This document shows positions 9,195 to 55,652 of a DNA stretch of 55,652 bases, piece after piece. Position 1 is the first letter of the stretch. Every line of letters starts with the position of its first letter. Both the position numbers and the translations under genes were made by a program. Below the pieces are notes generated by a model. That model did no database searches. It had not been told where the DNA came from and saw only the letters and a list, made by a program, of their open reading frames with translations. The stretch is from Akkermansia sp. Lineage in GTDB: Bacteria > Verrucomicrobiota > Verrucomicrobiia > Verrucomicrobiales > Akkermansiaceae. The stretch covers positions 1 through 55,652 of the forward strand of contig JAKSOT010000004.1 of the NCBI GenBank assembly GCA_024405455.1, in the 5' to 3' direction.

Positions 9195-9467
9195 ATGAGC
9201 GAAGATACTACTACGACCAAGCCCCAGGGCCTTCGCAAGACCCGCGTCGGCGTTGTTGTCTCCACCAAGATGAGCAAGACCATCGTTGTGGAGTACGTGG
9301 CCCGTGTTCCCCATCCCACCTTCAAGAAGATCGTGAAGAAGAGCAAGCGCTTCTACGCCCACGACGCCGAGGAGGTGGCCAAGCTGGGCGACAAGGTCCG
9401 CATCCGTGAAACCCGCCCGCTTTCCGCGCTCAAGCGCTGGGAGCTCGTGGAGATCCTCAAACACTAA
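9195..9467 (+). CDS. rpsQ: 30S ribosomal protein S17
   Basis: S17 is a primary 16S rRNA-binding protein with an OB-fold. The 90-residue product contains [44 protein letters not shown] across residues 14-57 and the terminal [18 protein letters not shown]. The N-terminus ([11 protein letters not shown]) is a short family-variable extension. A weak AAGGA lies upstream of the start. Confidence 0.96.
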
Positions 9468-49364: not shown

Positions 49365-51368
49365 ATGCGGACCCGCATTGCAGAGCAAGTGCTGGAGTTC
49401 GCCTTCCCCGCCGGAACCTCGCGCGGCGTCTACACCACACACCGCGTCTGGCGCGTGGAAGTGCAGGACGACACCGGCCGCGTGGGCATCGGCGAGTGCG
49501 CGCCGCTGCCGGATTTGAGCTGCGACGCCCTGCCGCCGCGCGAGTACCGCGCCAAACTGGAGGACGCATGCGCCGAGCTGGCGCGCACCGGGGAAATCCC
49601 CGCGGGGAGCCTGCGCGAATACCCGTCCATCCTCATGGGGCTGGAGACCGCCGTGCAGCATTTGCGCGCGGGCGGCTGGCGCCTGTGGGACACGCCGTTC
49701 AGCCGCGGTGAGGAGGGAATCCGCATCAACGGACTCATCTGGATGGGCGACTTCCCCACCATGCTGGAGCGCCTGGAACGCAAGCTGCAGGCGGGGTTCA
49801 AGTGCATCAAGGTCAAGATTGGCGCCATCGACTGGCAGCGCGAGGTGGACCTCCTGCGCCGCATCCGCGAGCGGTACTCGCCACAACAGGTGGAGCTGCG
49901 CGTGGACGCCAACGGCGCGTTCTCCCCGCAGGACGCTCCCGCGCGCCTGGAGCAATTGGCCGCGTTCGGCATCCACTCCATCGAGCAGCCCATCCGCGCC
50001 GGGCAATGGAGCGACATGGCGCGCCTGTGCAGGGAATCCCCCGTGCCCGTTGCGCTCGACGAGGAGCTCATCGGCGTGAACGATCCCGCCCGCAAGGCGG
50101 AACTGCTGGATGCCGTCCGCCCGCGCTACATCATCCTGAAACCCACGCTGCACGGCGGATTCCGCGGCGCGGAGGAATGGATGCGCCTCGCGGATGCGCG
50201 CGGCATCGGGCACTGGGTCACCTCCGCGCTGGAATCCAACATCGGGCTGAACGCCATCGCCCAATGGTGCGCCGCGCGCCGGCACGACATGCCGCAGGGC
50301 CTCGGCACCGGGCAGATCTACACCAACAACGTCGCACCCTTCCCGCTCTCCATCCGCGGCGAGCAACTGTGGTTCGACCCCGCAGCCGCCGCGCCCTGCA
50401 CGGAGTTGAACGCCTTCCTCGACGACTGGAACGGCCCCGCCGAATGCATCACCGTGCACACCTCCGGCTCCACCGGCGAACCCAAGCCCATGCAGGCCCG
50501 CAAGGAATTCATGGAGGCCAGCGCGCGCATGACCTGCCGCTTCCTCGGGCTGCGGGAGGGCGACTCCGCGCTGCTCTGCCTGCCGCTGCGCTTCATTGCC
50601 GGAAAGATGATGGTGGTGCGCTCCCTGGTGGCGGGGCTGCGGCTCATCCCGTGCGAACCGTGCGGGCACCCGCTGCGCGGGCTGCAGGAGCCGCCGGACT
50701 TCGCCGCCATGGTGCCGCTCCAGGTCTTCAACTCCCTCCAAGTGCCGCAGGAGGCCGAGATGCTGCGCGGGATCAAGAACCTCATCATCGGCGGCGGCCC
50801 CGTGGACGACGACCTCGCCGCGCAATTGAAAAAATTTCCCAACGCCGTGTGGTCCACCTACGGCATGACCGAAACCCTCTCACACATCGCCCTGCGCCGC
50901 CTCTCCGGCCCATCCGCCGATGCCTGCTACACGCCCTTCGACGGCGTGCAGCTCGCCCTCAACGAACACGGCTGCCTCGTCGTCACCGCCCCACACATCG
51001 GATGCCATAACCTCGCCACGCACGACATCGTCGAGATGGACTCCCGCGGCCGTTTCCGCATCCTCGGCCGCAGCGACAACACCATCAACTCCGGCGGCAT
51101 CAAAATCCAGCCCGAGCAAGTGGAGGAAACCCTCCGCCGCAACGGCCTGGCGGACGTCCTGCTCACCTCCGTCCCCGACCCCAAATTCGGCGAATCCACC
51201 GTCCTCCTCACCACCGCCGACCCCACAGAGGCGGAGCGCATCTGCCACTCTTGTCTCCCCCCCTACTCCATCCCCCGCCGCATCCTCCGCGTCCCCGCCC
51301 TTCCCCTCACCCCCACCGCCAAACCCAACCGCCCCGCCGCCCACCGTCTGGCCCAATCAAACATCTAA
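49365..51368 (+). CDS. menC: MenC-MenE fusion (o-succinylbenzoate synthase and ligase)
   Basis: The 667-residue product joins two consecutive menaquinone-pathway steps. Residues 1 to about 335 are MenC of the enolase superfamily: KVK (Lys149, Lys151), Asp181 in RVDANG, Glu207 in IEQP, Asp232 in ALDEEL and Lys259 in LKPTLHGG. From about residue 360 it is MenE, the acyl-CoA ligase: HTSGSTGEPKPM, TYGMTET and GRSDNTINSGGIKIQPEQVEE. It starts 4 nt after ftsQ. The 3' end of this gene is duplicated at 53187-53257. Confidence 0.92.
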   Translation: MRTRIAEQVLEFAFPAGTSRGVYTTHRVWRVEVQDDTGRVGIGECAPLPDLSCDALPPREYRAKLEDACAELARTGEIPAGSLREYPSILMGLETAVQHLRAGGWRLWDTPFSRGEEGIRINGLIWMGDFPTMLERLERKLQAGFKCIKVKIGAIDWQREVDLLRRIRERYSPQQVELRVDANGAFSPQDAPARLEQLAAFGIHSIEQPIRAGQWSDMARLCRESPVPVALDEELIGVNDPARKAELLDAVRPRYIILKPTLHGGFRGAEEWMRLADARGIGHWVTSALESNIGLNAIAQWCAARRHDMPQGLGTGQIYTNNVAPFPLSIRGEQLWFDPAAAAPCTELNAFLDDWNGPAECITVHTSGSTGEPKPMQARKEFMEASARMTCRFLGLREGDSALLCLPLRFIAGKMMVVRSLVAGLRLIPCEPCGHPLRGLQEPPDFAAMVPLQVFNSLQVPQEAEMLRGIKNLIIGGGPVDDDLAAQLKKFPNAVWSTYGMTETLSHIALRRLSGPSADACYTPFDGVQLALNEHGCLVVTAPHIGCHNLATHDIVEMDSRGRFRILGRSDNTINSGGIKIQPEQVEETLRRNGLADVLLTSVPDPKFGESTVLLTTADPTEAERICHSCLPPYSIPRRILRVPALPLTPTAKPNRPAAHRLAQSNI

Positions 51369-51377
51369 TCACCGCGG
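51310..51377 (+). repeat. Direct repeat, copy 1 (3' end of menC-menE)
   Basis: This stretch, ending just past the stop codon, is matched at 53187-53257. The first 61 nt show four mismatches without gaps, then a 3-nt insertion precedes a shared ACCGCGG. The two copies bracket the second AbiE pair and its repeats. Confidence 0.85.
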
Positions 51378-51397
51378 CATTGAATGCCGCCATTAGA
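51364..51397. repeat. Hairpin after menC-menE
   Basis: TCTAAT/ATTAGA outer and GCGGCATT/AATGCCGC inner arms (51364-51369, 51374-51381, 51383-51390, 51392-51397). It starts at the menC-menE stop and may act as a terminator, although no T-run follows. A second hairpin CGCGCCC-TGC-GGGCGCG lies at 51418-51434. Confidence 0.7.
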
Positions 51398-51494: not shown

Positions 51495-52334
51495 TCACGG
51501 CGTCCACCCCGCCATCAGCTCGGCAACCGCCGCCAGCGTGCTTTCCAGCGAAATCTCTCGCGCATAGGGGAACTTGGTGCTGTACACATTCCACTGTGCA
51601 TGCAGCGCGGCGCTTTGCTTCAGCGTATCCAGCCGCTCGGCGGCATCATTCAACACGGCGGCTGTGCCCCTGTGTTCCGCCGTGGCGAGCAGGGCCTCTT
51701 TGAACAGGGCCGGGCTGAACTGCCCCGCACGGCTCAAGATGTAGACATCGTAAAAATCCCTGGGGCGCGTGCTCAGCGTGCCTAGGCTCAGGATGGCCTC
51801 CACCTTTTCCGCAAGTATGGTTTCCACGTTGTAGCCCCAAAGGGATATTTTCGTCTCGTCGCCGAACATGCCGCCGAACTCGTACTCCACCGGATGCGGA
51901 GTTATGGCGTCGCCCGTGGAGATATCGATGGACAGCGGCGTGCGCAAGGTGTCGTACAGCGCATCCAGTCGCACGCGGAAGCCGCCGTAGACGTCATCCT
52001 TGCGTATCGGCTCCATGCCGATGCTCTCGAATGCGGTGCCGTCTCCCAAATCAATGGCGGCAATGGCGTTGACCGCTTGCAGCACGGCCTCGCCCGTGAG
52101 CGGCATGCGCCGCAGCGTGGCGTCCAAATCCATGGTGGTGCGGGTGGCCAGTCCCATCAGGTGGCTCACCAGCATGCCGCCCTTGATGACGAAGTGGTCT
52201 CGGTACGGCGAGCGCGACAAGCGCTCCAGGAAGCGCTCGAACATGTAATTCTGCAACGCCACCTGCGCCGGAACCCCGCAGCGGGCGGCGTAGTTTTTCA
52301 GCAAGGCTTTCAATCTCATTCCCTGGGCACTCAT
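51495..52334 (-). CDS. AbiEii-family nucleotidyltransferase toxin (second pair)
   Basis: The 279-residue product shows the DUF1814/AbiEii features: FVIKGGMLVSHLMGLATRTTMDLDATLRR with the metal-binding DLD, and YNVETILAEKVEAILSLGTLSTRPRDFYDVYIL. The start MSAQGMRLKALL at 52334 overlaps the antitoxin stop (ATGA). It is clearly different in sequence from the toxin at 29106-30002, so the two pairs were probably acquired separately. Confidence 0.9.
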   Translation of the reverse strand: MSAQGMRLKALLKNYAARCGVPAQVALQNYMFERFLERLSRSPYRDHFVIKGGMLVSHLMGLATRTTMDLDATLRRMPLTGEAVLQAVNAIAAIDLGDGTAFESIGMEPIRKDDVYGGFRVRLDALYDTLRTPLSIDISTGDAITPHPVEYEFGGMFGDETKISLWGYNVETILAEKVEAILSLGTLSTRPRDFYDVYILSRAGQFSPALFKEALLATAEHRGTAAVLNDAAERLDTLKQSAALHAQWNVYSTKFPYAREISLESTLAAVAELMAGWTP

Positions 52335-52924
52335 AGCAGTAATCCGGCAAACATTCGCAATTCCTTCTCCACCCCGAACATGGCCCCGTACTGCCCCAGC
52401 AGGTGGAGATCCTTCTGCGGGGAAGCGGCATAGTTTTTCAGCGCGGCGTGCAGGGCCTCCACATTGGTGCGCTTGCTGCAGCGCAACATGTCGCACAGCG
52501 TCCTCTCCGCGTTGTAGCAGCGCACGGGATTGCCGAACGGCGTGCGCCGCTCCGCCATGCCCACGGAATACCAGGCCGGCTTCACGTAAAAGCATTCGCA
52601 CTCCCCCGCCAGCGCGCTGGAAAGCGACGCCTTGCGCGGCAGCGTCACCGCATACGCAAAGGGCGTGCGCTCCCCGATGCCGTTCAGATACAGCGCCGTT
52701 TCATGGGAAAACACAGCCTTGGATTGGCACAGCTGCAACGTGTACATCTCGTCGTGCACCGTATCGGGCAACCCATACACCCCGTGCCGCAAACGCTCCA
52801 GCTTTCCGCGCCGCGCATAGTCCAGCATCAGCTGCCGACTCACCCCAAGCTCCGCCGCGCGTGAAACCGTGATGATTCCACCCGTTTTCCCTGCCTCCTC
52901 GGCCACCTGTTCATAGAGACTCAC
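52331..52924 (-). CDS. AbiEi-family antitoxin with HTH (second pair)
   Basis: The 197-residue product has an N-terminal winged helix (YEQVAEEAGKTGGIITVSRAAELGVSRQLMLDYARRGKLERLRHGVYGLPD). The AbiEi C-terminal domain follows (HETALYLNGIGERTPFAYAVTLPRK ... VRCYNAERTLCDMLR). It should neutralise the adjacent toxin and repress the operon. A GTG at 52924 places the start just before the winged helix; a TTG at 52984 would overlap a TTGACT -35-like element and is less likely. Confidence 0.85.
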   Translation of the reverse strand: MSLYEQVAEEAGKTGGIITVSRAAELGVSRQLMLDYARRGKLERLRHGVYGLPDTVHDEMYTLQLCQSKAVFSHETALYLNGIGERTPFAYAVTLPRKASLSSALAGECECFYVKPAWYSVGMAERRTPFGNPVRCYNAERTLCDMLRCSKRTNVEALHAALKNYAASPQKDLHLLGQYGAMFGVEKELRMFAGLLL

Positions 52925-53148
52925 CTCGTATTCACTTTCCTTTGCAACGGCAATTTGCCACAACGCCGCCCAAAAGTCAAACAAAATCGCAAACTTTTCT
53001 CGCTTTTGCCCGGTAAACGAGCGCTGAATAAGGGGGCGGCGGAATGTTTTTTATGCGCAGGGAGATAGTAGTGTGGGGGTAGTAGTGTGTCGCGCAGCCT
53101 ATGGCGCGCCGCTCGTTGCTCCGCGCCGCAAGGCGCGCGCTATCCCGA

Positions 53149-53186: not shown

Positions 53187-53257
53187 CCCCCACCGCCAAA
53201 CCCAACCGCCCCGCCGCCCACCGCCTCGCCCAATCCCACATCTAATCTCCACCGCGG
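53187..53257 (+). repeat. Direct repeat, copy 2 (menE 3' remnant)
   Basis: Copy of 51310-51377. It keeps the menE frame (TAKPNRPAAHRLAQSHI followed by TAA), so it is a remnant of a menE-like 3' end and not chance similarity. Confidence 0.85.
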
Positions 53258-53313
53258 ACGCCGCCGGCAAAAACAACACAAGAATTTCGATGGGGAATAG
53301 GCCTTCTGCGTCA

Positions 53314-53331
53314 GCAGCTAAATGATAATTT
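53314..53331 (+). repeat. hsdS recombination repeat, copy A
   Basis: GCAGCTAAATGATAATTT on the plus strand, coding the LNDNL motif at the start of the conserved central region of HsdS. It is exactly repeated in inverted orientation at 54022-54039. Confidence 0.9.
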
Positions 53332-54046
53332 GGAGGCCATGGCACAGGCTCTGTACGACTACTGGTTCGTGCAGTTCGATTTCCCAGATGAAAACGGCAA
53401 GCCCTACAAGTCCAGCGGTGGCAAGATGGTGTGGAATGACAAGCTCAAGCGTGAGATACCGGAAGGGTGGACAACAGAAACGGTTGGCGAGATTACTATG
53501 TGCCATGATTCTCGCAGGATTCCCTTATCGGGGAAAGTGCGTGAGACAATGCAAGGCGATATCCCTTATTACGGTGCAACAGGCATTTTTGGATATGTGA
53601 ATCGTCACATTTTTGAAGGAGACTTTGTATTACTAGCTGAGGACGGCTCAGTGATGACAGAAAAAGGACGACCGATTGTCCAACGCGTATCTGGCAAGGT
53701 ATGGATAAACAACCATGCCCACGTCTTGCAACCCAGCAAGGAACACGGTTGCAAGTTGCTAATGATGATACTTTCTGAAATACCTGTTGAAAAGATAAAG
53801 ACAGGTTCAATACAGGCCAAAATCAATCAAGCGAATCTGAGCGCATATTGTCTGGCAAAAATACCCCGCACCCTTATTTGTCGGACGAATAAGATTCTTG
53901 ATGAAATAGATTCAAGACTACTAGCGCTAGCAAGAGAAATAAATACTCTTACCAAGCAGCGTGACCTCCTCCTGCCCCTGCTGATGAGCGGTCAGGTGCA
54001 GGTCAAGCCGCAAGGGGAGCTAAATTATCATTTAGCTGCCGATTAA
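53330..54046 (+). CDS. hsdS: Type I restriction specificity subunit, C-terminal half (partial hsdS)
   Basis: The 238-residue frame is the second half of a type I restriction-modification specificity protein. It begins in the central conserved region (LEAMAQALYDYWFVQFDFPDENGKPYKSSGGKMVWN). A second target-recognition domain follows (IPEGWTTETVGEITMC to LAKIPR) and the C-terminal coil (REINTLTKQRDLLLPLLMSGQVQV). The frame is open back to 53246 but has no ATG and no first recognition domain. The first codon given here is TTG. The last residues (GELNYHLAAD) are read through repeat copy B. As it stands this is a silent half gene. Confidence 0.85.
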   Translation: MEAMAQALYDYWFVQFDFPDENGKPYKSSGGKMVWNDKLKREIPEGWTTETVGEITMCHDSRRIPLSGKVRETMQGDIPYYGATGIFGYVNRHIFEGDFVLLAEDGSVMTEKGRPIVQRVSGKVWINNHAHVLQPSKEHGCKLLMMILSEIPVEKIKTGSIQAKINQANLSAYCLAKIPRTLICRTNKILDEIDSRLLALAREINTLTKQRDLLLPLLMSGQVQVKPQGELNYHLAAD

Positions 54047-54521
54047 GGCGGATTTTCCGAGAAAGCACAGCATTTAATAGGCCGATGTGGTGTTCTTCCT
54101 CTTCAGAGAGGTCAGGAACGAGGAATCGCATGATTTGCTGTTTGTCACCCCTTGGCATTTTTGCTCCCTTCTTCCCAGCCATTGCGTGGTCAAAGAAAGC
54201 ATCCTGCATGAGCACTGCATATAGGAAATCTGGAGAATGATGTGGATGGACACGGAAGACTAATACATCTGGGGAACATCCCCCTGTGCAGTCGGCTTGC
54301 CAAATCTTCTTCAGATAGGGTCGTATGTTTGCCACCAGTACGTCGCCTGGTTCGAATTTTGTCAAGGAGACCTTATTGGGCGGGAGTTTTTGTGCTGTTT
54401 CTCTCCCTGCCTTGTTTGGCATGAGAGAATCTGTGGTCACGTATGTCTCCAGCGAAACAGCATCACTGCTGATTCGCTCCCCTACATAAGTGGCAAGCAT
54501 CGACAATGCAACGTGGCTCAT
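54003..54521 (-). CDS. hsdS: Type I restriction specificity subunit, N-terminal half (partial hsdS)
   Basis: The 172-residue product has a first target-recognition domain (MSHVALSMLATYVGERISSDAVSLETYVTTDSL ... FRVHPHHSPDFLYAVLMQ). It is followed by the central coil EEEHHIGLLNAVLSRKIRLNRQLNDNL. It then breaks off after reading through repeat copy B (LAPLAA, stop). Full HsdS proteins have two recognition domains and about 400 residues. It has its own promoter. Inverting the DNA between copies A and B would continue it into the half gene at 53330-54046. Confidence 0.87.
   Translation of the reverse strand: MSHVALSMLATYVGERISSDAVSLETYVTTDSLMPNKAGRETAQKLPPNKVSLTKFEPGDVLVANIRPYLKKIWQADCTGGCSPDVLVFRVHPHHSPDFLYAVLMQDAFFDHAMAGKKGAKMPRGDKQQIMRFLVPDLSEEEEHHIGLLNAVLSRKIRLNRQLNDNLAPLAA
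54022..54039 (-). repeat. hsdS recombination repeat, copy B (inverted)
   Basis: Reverse complement of copy A, 18 of 18 nt identical. The surrounding bases form a small palindrome AGCTAAAT-TATC-ATTTAGCT. Copies A and B bound a segment of about 0.7 kb that could invert. Confidence 0.9.
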
Positions 54522-54530
54522 GCAAGCGCG

Positions 54531-54559
54531 AGTATACGCCAATCCGCCCCAAAAGGCAA
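54531..54559 (-). promoter_or_regulatory. Promoter of the hsdS N-terminal half
   Basis: On the minus strand TTGCCT (54554-54559), a 17-nt spacer and TATACT (54531-54536). The ATG at 54521 follows after 9 nt, so the leader is only a few nucleotides. Confidence 0.65.
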
Positions 54560-54592
54560 GCGTTTCACGCCTTGTATAGAGAGCCAGGGTTG

Positions 54593-55582
54593 CTAACTAA
54601 TATATTTTCGGTGAGCCAGTTTAACATTGTTTTGGTTGACCTGTGCGTAATGCAGTGTGGTGTCTACTCGTACATGCCCCAGAAGTTTTTGCACCTGCTC
54701 GATGGGCATCCCTTTATCGATAGCCATGGTCGCCATGGTGCGGCGGAACTTGTGGGGGTGAATATGGTGGATGTTGGCGCGGGAGCCGACGGCGCGAAGA
54801 CGACTTTCCACCCCACCGATAGTCAGGCGGGAATGAGGAGCATGCAGTGAGACGAAAAGCGCTGGGTTATCATCGGAGCGCTCGCGTAGATAATTGAGCA
54901 AATGAATCTTTGCGCGGGCGTTGAAGTAGACCTCACGCTCTTTGTTGCCTTTGCCAAATACCACACATTGGCGTTCTTGGAAGTCGATATCCTGCCGGTT
55001 CATCTTGACCAATTCGCCGACGCGAATGCCGGTGGACACGAGGAGGTCAATCATGGCCAAGTCGCGGGGTTCGATGCAGGAATCACGCAGGACTTCCAGA
55101 TTCTCATCGGTCAGCACTTCCTTGATGAGTGACTCTGCTCGCACCTTGCGGATGCGGCGCACAGGGCTCTTGCGGATGAGGTCTTCATCCTCCAGCCATG
55201 AGAAAAAACTGGAGAAGATGCGGCGGATATTGTCAATGGTCACGCGGCTGAGCGAGCGGGTTTCCTGGATAGAGGCGAGGAAGCTGCGGATGTCTGCGGT
55301 AGTGATGGCATCCATAGGTTTATCAATGGCGGTCAACAGCTTGTGGAGTGTAGAGTGGTAGTAGGTCAAGGATTTCTCAGAGCAGCCCTCCAAACGCTTT
55401 GCGGCGATGAACGCCTGCTCCAGATCGTTGTTTTCTCGCATGCATCGCACGCCATCGGATTCTCTCGGCGTTATCTCCACCTGTTCCAGTTCTTTGAGCA
55501 GGACTTCTCGAAGAGCATCCCTTTCTGCCTGCGGGAAGTGGGATAGCTTAGCCAGTACGTTGTTGATGAGATTCTGCTTCAT
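54593..55582 (-). CDS. Tyrosine recombinase, likely hsdS invertase
   Basis: The 329-residue product has an N-terminal SAM-like DNA-binding domain (about 55-145) and a complete tyrosine-recombinase catalytic domain. The catalytic residues are Arg in TGIRVGELVKM, Lys in GKGNKER, His-x2-Arg in HPHKFRRTMAT, His in LLGHVRVDTT and the nucleophile Tyr in TLHYAQV. It lies between the two hsdS recombination repeats B and C, so its likely job is inversion at those sites, as with Xer-like enzymes of other phase-variable hsdS loci. It also resembles XerC/D; integration or dimer resolution is the alternative. Confidence 0.9.
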   Translation of the reverse strand: MKQNLINNVLAKLSHFPQAERDALREVLLKELEQVEITPRESDGVRCMRENNDLEQAFIAAKRLEGCSEKSLTYYHSTLHKLLTAIDKPMDAITTADIRSFLASIQETRSLSRVTIDNIRRIFSSFFSWLEDEDLIRKSPVRRIRKVRAESLIKEVLTDENLEVLRDSCIEPRDLAMIDLLVSTGIRVGELVKMNRQDIDFQERQCVVFGKGNKEREVYFNARAKIHLLNYLRERSDDNPALFVSLHAPHSRLTIGGVESRLRAVGSRANIHHIHPHKFRRTMATMAIDKGMPIEQVQKLLGHVRVDTTLHYAQVNQNNVKLAHRKYIS

Positions 55583-55591
55583 GGTAGGGCT

Positions 55592-55620
55592 ATTATATCA
55601 GCTGGGCAAAATCCTGCCAC
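55592..55620 (-). promoter_or_regulatory. Promoter of the recombinase gene
   Basis: On the minus strand GTGGCA (55615-55620), a 17-nt spacer and a consensus TATAAT (55592-55597). The ATG at 55582 is 9 nt downstream. Confidence 0.6.
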
Positions 55621-55637
55621 CCGCTACCTGGCGTAGA

Positions 55638-55652
55638 GATAAATGATAATTT
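55638..55652 (+). repeat. hsdS recombination repeat, copy C (cut by window edge)
   Basis: GATAAATGATAATTT at the last bases of the window shares 13 contiguous nt (TAAATGATAATTT) with copy A and has the same orientation. In the matching frame it reads EINDN, the same HsdS position, so another hsdS segment probably continues to the right. Confidence 0.7.

Follow-up and report, generated by a model that had tools for sequence, protein, structure and literature searches.

The last 13 bases of the window, by which we mean the whole stretch of DNA analyzed, the entire 55,652-nt contig C89 of the Akkermansia genome G000, are very probably one of four sites that let a recombinase built into the locus reshuffle two N-terminal and two C-terminal halves of hsdS at a type I restriction-modification (R-M) locus. 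A preliminary description of this DNA had claimed a third recombination repeat at the window edge, oriented like copy A, with copies B and C inverted relative to each other. An exact match search agrees on each count: the 13-base repeat TAAATGATAATTT occurs three times in the window, with copies A and C on the plus strand and copy B on the minus strand, and the assembly stops at copy C. The G000 genome (2,346,285 bases in 154 contigs) contains four copies in total, every one at the type I R-M locus, the fourth being located near the end of contig C79 (C79:23009-23021). A chance origin of the third repeat is ruled out, as matches were present in 0 of 100 dinucleotide shuffles of the window and a control pattern, the repeat read backwards, has 0 copies across the whole G000 genome. 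Copy A sits in a 21-nt arm that is inverted with respect to positions 54022-54042 with a 95% match.

The features of the locus are listed in Table 1. On the evidence of their reading frames and of full-length relatives, the hsdS halves are identified as a C-terminal half, C1, and an N-terminal half, N2. A domain search with N2 alone returned no Pfam match; over 171 aa it shares 74% identity with the beginning of a full-length HsdS ORF in the related locus L060. In its present state N2 ends with the residues ...NDNLAPLAA. The C1 frame is open through copy A, and when the segment between copies A and B is inverted in silico, N2 reads into C1 without a stop to give a 493-aa product, the last 89 residues of which derive from the outer flank because the C1 stop codon lies beyond copy B. 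The preliminary description had read copy C in a frame spelling EINDN; these letters can be read in the plus frame, but the frame is incidental, as copy C is located in the recombinase leader. Copy C as the end of an hsdS N-half is rejected by its position between the recombinase start at 55582 and the contig end. Genes for an AbiEii-type nucleotidyltransferase toxin and an AbiEi antitoxin (window 51495-52984, minus strand; PF08843 1e-39, PF13338 2.8e-9) adjoin the hsdS locus. The 69-nt end of an upstream AMP-ligase-like gene is duplicated at 90% on either side of the AbiE pair (window 51310-51378 and 53187-53255), as if the pair had been inserted with duplication of that gene end.

Table 1. 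Features of the hsdS locus in the window, and the related locus found complete on a single contig.
Feature	Position or accession	Strand	Basis or remark
Copy A, taken as outer site R4	53319-53331	+	Exact match
hsdS C-terminal half C1, now inverted relative to N2	53318..54046	+	PF01420, E 1.8e-9
hsdS N-terminal half N2, own ATG, downstream of recombinase	54003..54521	-	ORF
Copy B, taken as site R3, N2/C1 junction	54022-54034	-	Exact match
Tyrosine recombinase	54593..55582	-	PF00589, E 6.7e-34; NF040815, 233 bits (cut-off 220)
Recombinase leader, start codon to copy C	55583..55639		Position only; spacing class as in L060
Copy C, taken as site R2, contig end	55640-55652	+	Exact match, final 13 bases of the window
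Locus L060	JAFYWX010000027.1		Akkermansia sp. RGIG7496, water-buffalo colon; complete locus on one contig

Contig C79 carries, in order, hsdR, hsdM, an hsdS N-half (N1) and the fourth repeat. A further repeat, hsdM and hsdR had been expected beyond the window edge, and all of them are thus found on this contig of the same genome together with an additional N-half. HsdR, HsdM, N1 and C1 carry Pfam domains, and the genes of a type I R-M system occur together: hsdR, hsdM and N1 are adjacent on C79, C1 and N2 are on the window contig, and all share one contig in L060. An in-silico fusion of N1 with C1 at the repeat keeps its frame open for 414 aa. The fourth repeat begins 54 bases before the end of C79, and these final 54 bp are the reverse complement of window positions 53981-54034, taking in the repeat and 41 bases from the 3' end of C1. 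With one base added, C79 would share 55 bases with copy C joined to the same sequence. A value of 55 is a common assembler k-mer, and because the shared length matches it we infer that the ends of C79 and C89 are forks in the assembly graph. A DNA search of G000 with window positions 53311-55652 found no further C-half, so the cassette adjoining copy C is absent from the assembly. Across the whole genome, the Pfam Methylase_S profile detected N1 and missed C1; weak members therefore escape it, and this search cannot prove a further half absent. Judging by comparison with relatives, the layout in G000, including the join of C79 to the window, would be hsdR-hsdM-N1-R1>-[C-half, not assembled]-<R2(=C)-recombinase-N2-R3>(=B)-[C1, now inverted]-<R4(=A)-AbiE-like genes. 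As assembled, N1 (at the tail of C79) and N2 (in the window) are both joined to inverted C sequence, which leaves no complete HsdS and sets assembled G000 apart from nearly all of its relatives. Because both halves sit on contigs broken at sites, a mixture of two states in the population is, in our reading, the simpler account of this arrangement.

Relatives within the genus display the locus in other states. L060 reads hsdR-hsdM-N1-R>-[C-half]-<R-recombinase-N2-R>-[C-half]-<R, with sites of alternating orientation at 9223+, 9938-, 11552+ and 12285-. Its N1 is followed by an inverted C-half and a recombinase 91% identical to that of the window, and its N2 is fused to a C-half in one 432-aa ORF; N2 is likewise naturally open into a C-half in G051:C80. 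In G023, a metagenome assembly of a sister species, contig C32 has a fusion of N1 with a C-half, Ca, and the segment of recombinase plus N2 is oriented opposite to that in G000 and G062, in keeping with the earlier proposal that this segment can flip between copies B and C. On C32, 125 bp of a second C-half come after the counterpart of copy C before the contig breaks off. In that assembly, contig C2 opens with the final 30 bp of N1, then the repeat and a C-half, Cb, and from the repeat onward it is identical to the right end of C32 at 125 of 125 positions, as against 95% to Ca. The G023 assembly therefore holds N1-Ca, N1-Cb and third-site-Cb junctions. The expectation that an N-half would be joined to either of two partners is realized here by the N1 end on two contigs, and the predicted second C-half beyond the edge lies after the copy C equivalent in G023, although none was found in G000 itself. 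A recombinase match at E ≤ 1e-40 is present in 9 of the 76 genomes of the genus, the closest four (G000, G062, G023 and G051) having recombinases at least 85% identical, and an hsdM match at E ≤ 1e-100 is present in 8 of the 76, G000 included.

Because the four sites alternate in orientation, recombination between neighboring sites would flip either a C-half or the segment of recombinase plus N2, whereas recombination between R1 and R4 would reverse the entire order. Either N1 or N2, when joined to either C-half, would give an open HsdS whose central conserved region is encoded across the repeat. As many as four DNA specificities would result, along with states in which HsdS is truncated. The preliminary description had allowed for at least two alternative specificities; the notion of alternatives stands, and their number is corrected to up to four, from two N-halves and two C-halves, and a fourth site is added. 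Shuffling would depend on the recombinase encoded in the window, and the HsdS proteins formed would be active.

The different junctions could instead stem from homologous recombination or cassette exchange between strains and not from site-specific inversion within a cell. The C-halves have a conserved stretch in common at their 5' and 3' ends, and the hsdM-N1 regions of G007 and G023 are 99.5-99.6% identical (N1, 99.6% over 540 bp), yet G007 N1 is fused to a different C-half, only 76% identical to G023 Cb. Since these genomes have the same N1 and different C-halves, cassettes have probably also been exchanged between lineages. As the source of the junctions as a whole, we nevertheless consider strain exchange unlikely: the inverted matches among the window's sites are only 13-21 nt long, the recombinase has a fixed place between the sites, and site cores, though variable from one locus to another, agree within the locus in 39 of the 41 four-site loci described below. 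We give hardly any weight to a decayed relative, in which sites and recombinase persist in a fixed arrangement and low coverage alone explains the contig break, for although neither N-half is joined in frame to a C-half in assembled G000, and G004, G017 and G045 have the 13-mer at both ends of a C-half with no recombinase match at E ≤ 1e-40 genome-wide, the reading frames are intact, the four core sites are identical, sister contigs also end at or near sites (G007:C69 starts inside the repeat, and G023 C32 ends 125 bp from the site start), and two N1 junctions are present in one sister assembly (G023).

Several other arrangements were noted in Akkermansia. The same 13-mer is inverted at both ends of an hsdS C-half in L173, at 6340 (+) and 7032 (-), and similarly in G017, G045 and G068. 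Such flanked C-halves in several genomes have no close recombinase of the same family beside them, and it is possible that they are a one-cassette on/off version of the system or a remnant. A RhuM-family gene follows hsdM in L164 (5032-6048; PF13310 2.8e-100, the profile having been run on L164 only), and ORFs similar to it follow hsdM in L163, L165, L166 and L029, making five sister loci in all; in G000 and L060, N1 comes directly after hsdM with no RhuM-family gene between them. Contig C11 of G023 (L030) carries a second recombinase, 56% identical, accompanied by hsdS-like genes of its own, so two shufflers may coexist in a single genome.

The wider recombinase family was surveyed through 402 relatives from one contig scan, the best 80 of which were kept. 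Four sites in the order > < recombinase > < were called around the recombinase in 41 of these best 80. An earlier, stricter site rule, which gave four sites in 30 of the 80 loci, partial sets in 41 and none in 9, was replaced by this one, which is tied to each locus's own third site. The inner 11 bases are identical at all four sites in the 39 loci mentioned above, an identity that is partly selected for, as sites 1, 2 and 4 were sought as near matches to site 3, and nine different cores occur between loci. The remaining two loci look miscalled at their first two sites; on inspection, sites were miscalled in L076, L070, L084 and L139. Strand exchange by tyrosine recombinases needs the sites within a locus to be identical and is compatible with variation between loci. 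Records labelled Bacteroidota, Clostridia, Listeria and Verrucomicrobiota all contain examples of the four-site layout. The position of hsdM allowed 45 loci to be classed, 34 as F, with the recombinase segment pointing away from hsdM, and 11 as R, with the segment pointing towards it; the middle segment thus occurs naturally in either orientation. The other 35 of the 80 were dropped because no N-half or site followed the recombinase, the contig lacked hsdM, or the layout differed. Huang et al. 2020 (NAR), on epigenetic invertons, may reportedly already list some of these recombinases. Six alternating sites in L081 (2894-8126), with the spacing of two recombinase-plus-N2 modules, suggest a larger array. 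In a different layout, recombinase relatives lie directly after an hsdM-like gene in L100, L106, L107, L119, L125, L127, L133, L135 and L137, from Prevotella-like and other Bacteroidales/Bacteroidia records. Recombinases 60-65% identical are also present in the phage records MT838471, MT835621, MT839915 and MT840076 ('Bacteriophage sp.', human faeces, unannotated).

The classed loci were tallied by which N-half is completed by a C-half. Among the 31 clear F loci, only N1 is complete in 20 and only N2 in 11, with both complete in 0 and neither in 0 (Fisher p = 1.2e-8 for N1 versus N2 state, uncorrected for shared ancestry); the remaining 3 of the 34 F loci are ambiguous at contig ends and were left out of the tally. 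The two cassettes are oppositely oriented in F loci by 31:0, versus 4:6 in R loci (Fisher p = 4.7e-5, and 6.4e-5 after removal of two near-duplicates, both uncorrected for shared ancestry), the R tally covering the 10 of 11 loci with a judgeable far cassette. In R loci the geometry always leaves one N-half complete, and the orientation of the far cassette is free. L103, one of the dropped loci, breaks the pattern, with both of its N-halves open. We put at even chances a general rule whereby four-site loci across phyla have one complete hsdS at a time, the cassettes of F loci being nearly always opposed and the far cassette of R loci, which no N-half can read, being free. If the rule holds, states with zero or two specificities would be selected against, or flips would be coupled.

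The system that the locus most resembles is SsuCC20p of S. suis, to which type we assign it from its sequence. According to the S. suis paper (PMC10790761), SsuCC20p comprises hsdM, hsdR, four TRD halves and xerD, and identical 14-bp inverted repeats (TAAATCATCATTTA / TAAATGATGATTTA) flank both C-half TRDs, TRD2 and TRD4. A complete hsdS forms after hsdM or after xerD, the post-xerD hsdS being active, and shuffling requires xerD by a mechanism that the authors left open. The paper further reports that inverted xerD is absent from assemblies but was seen in reads and confirmed by PCR, that the assemblies follow the same one-hsdS pattern, and that the locus lies in a prophage region, its layout being called 'restricted to streptococci'. 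The two loci are alike in geometry, in their near-identical 14-bp sites and in having recombinases of one family, each flanked by two C-half cassettes; they differ in host (Verrucomicrobiota for Akkermansia), in site core (TGATA, as against TCATC in S. suis) and in that the middle segment is present in both orientations among Akkermansia genomes, unlike in the S. suis assemblies. Identity between the recombinases of the window and of S. suis 10581 (L112) is 60%, and the L112 locus too displays the same four sites. One of the two cassettes flanking the recombinase is in the window and both are present in L060 and G023; the four G000 sites are spread over two contigs, with their alternation visible on one contig in L060; and a second N-half is present, N2 being open into C1 after inversion in silico and into its C-half in the two relatives noted above.

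Two other descriptions fit less well. In the S. pneumoniae cod locus, SpnD39III (Spn556II), as PMC4948785 and PMC7096588 describe it, the tyrosine recombinase PsrA/CreX is encoded in the locus and inversion swaps hsdS parts, as in Akkermansia. There, however, three different repeat pairs of 15, 85 and 298 bp are used, the 15-bp inverted repeat being recombinase-dependent, and hsdSB and hsdSC serve only as donors, whereas the Akkermansia locus, instead of several repeat pairs and one expressed hsdS beside hsdM, has a single type of site in four copies and, in N2, a further N-half that carries its own start codon. A REBASE survey of inverting type I loci (PMC7394358) likewise concerns hsdS genes with inverted repeats inside one locus; it demanded identical repeats of at least 20 bp, a rule that would miss the 13-bp Akkermansia sites unless their flanks also matched. 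In literature searches on Akkermansia with hsdS inversion, no listed publication described the locus in its title or the start of its abstract, PMC11892184 being the nearest.

These results add Akkermansia, a major genus of the gut, to the bacteria that carry a restriction switch of up to four specificities, and they place an SsuCC20p-like layout in several phyla, a wider range than stated in the S. suis paper (PMC10790761). New here are that breadth, the identity of sites within a locus alongside cores that differ between loci, and the single complete hsdS in 31 of 31 clear F loci. At 13-14 bp, the sites let loci of this kind slip easily through repeat surveys and tend to fragment assemblies, and a contig that ends within hsdS may therefore often mark such a switch. 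With the tally of states, whether cells can live with zero or two complete HsdS proteins becomes a testable question, and, if the one-hsdS rule is true, the unexplained TRD shuffling of SsuCC20p would reduce to simple inversions plus selection.
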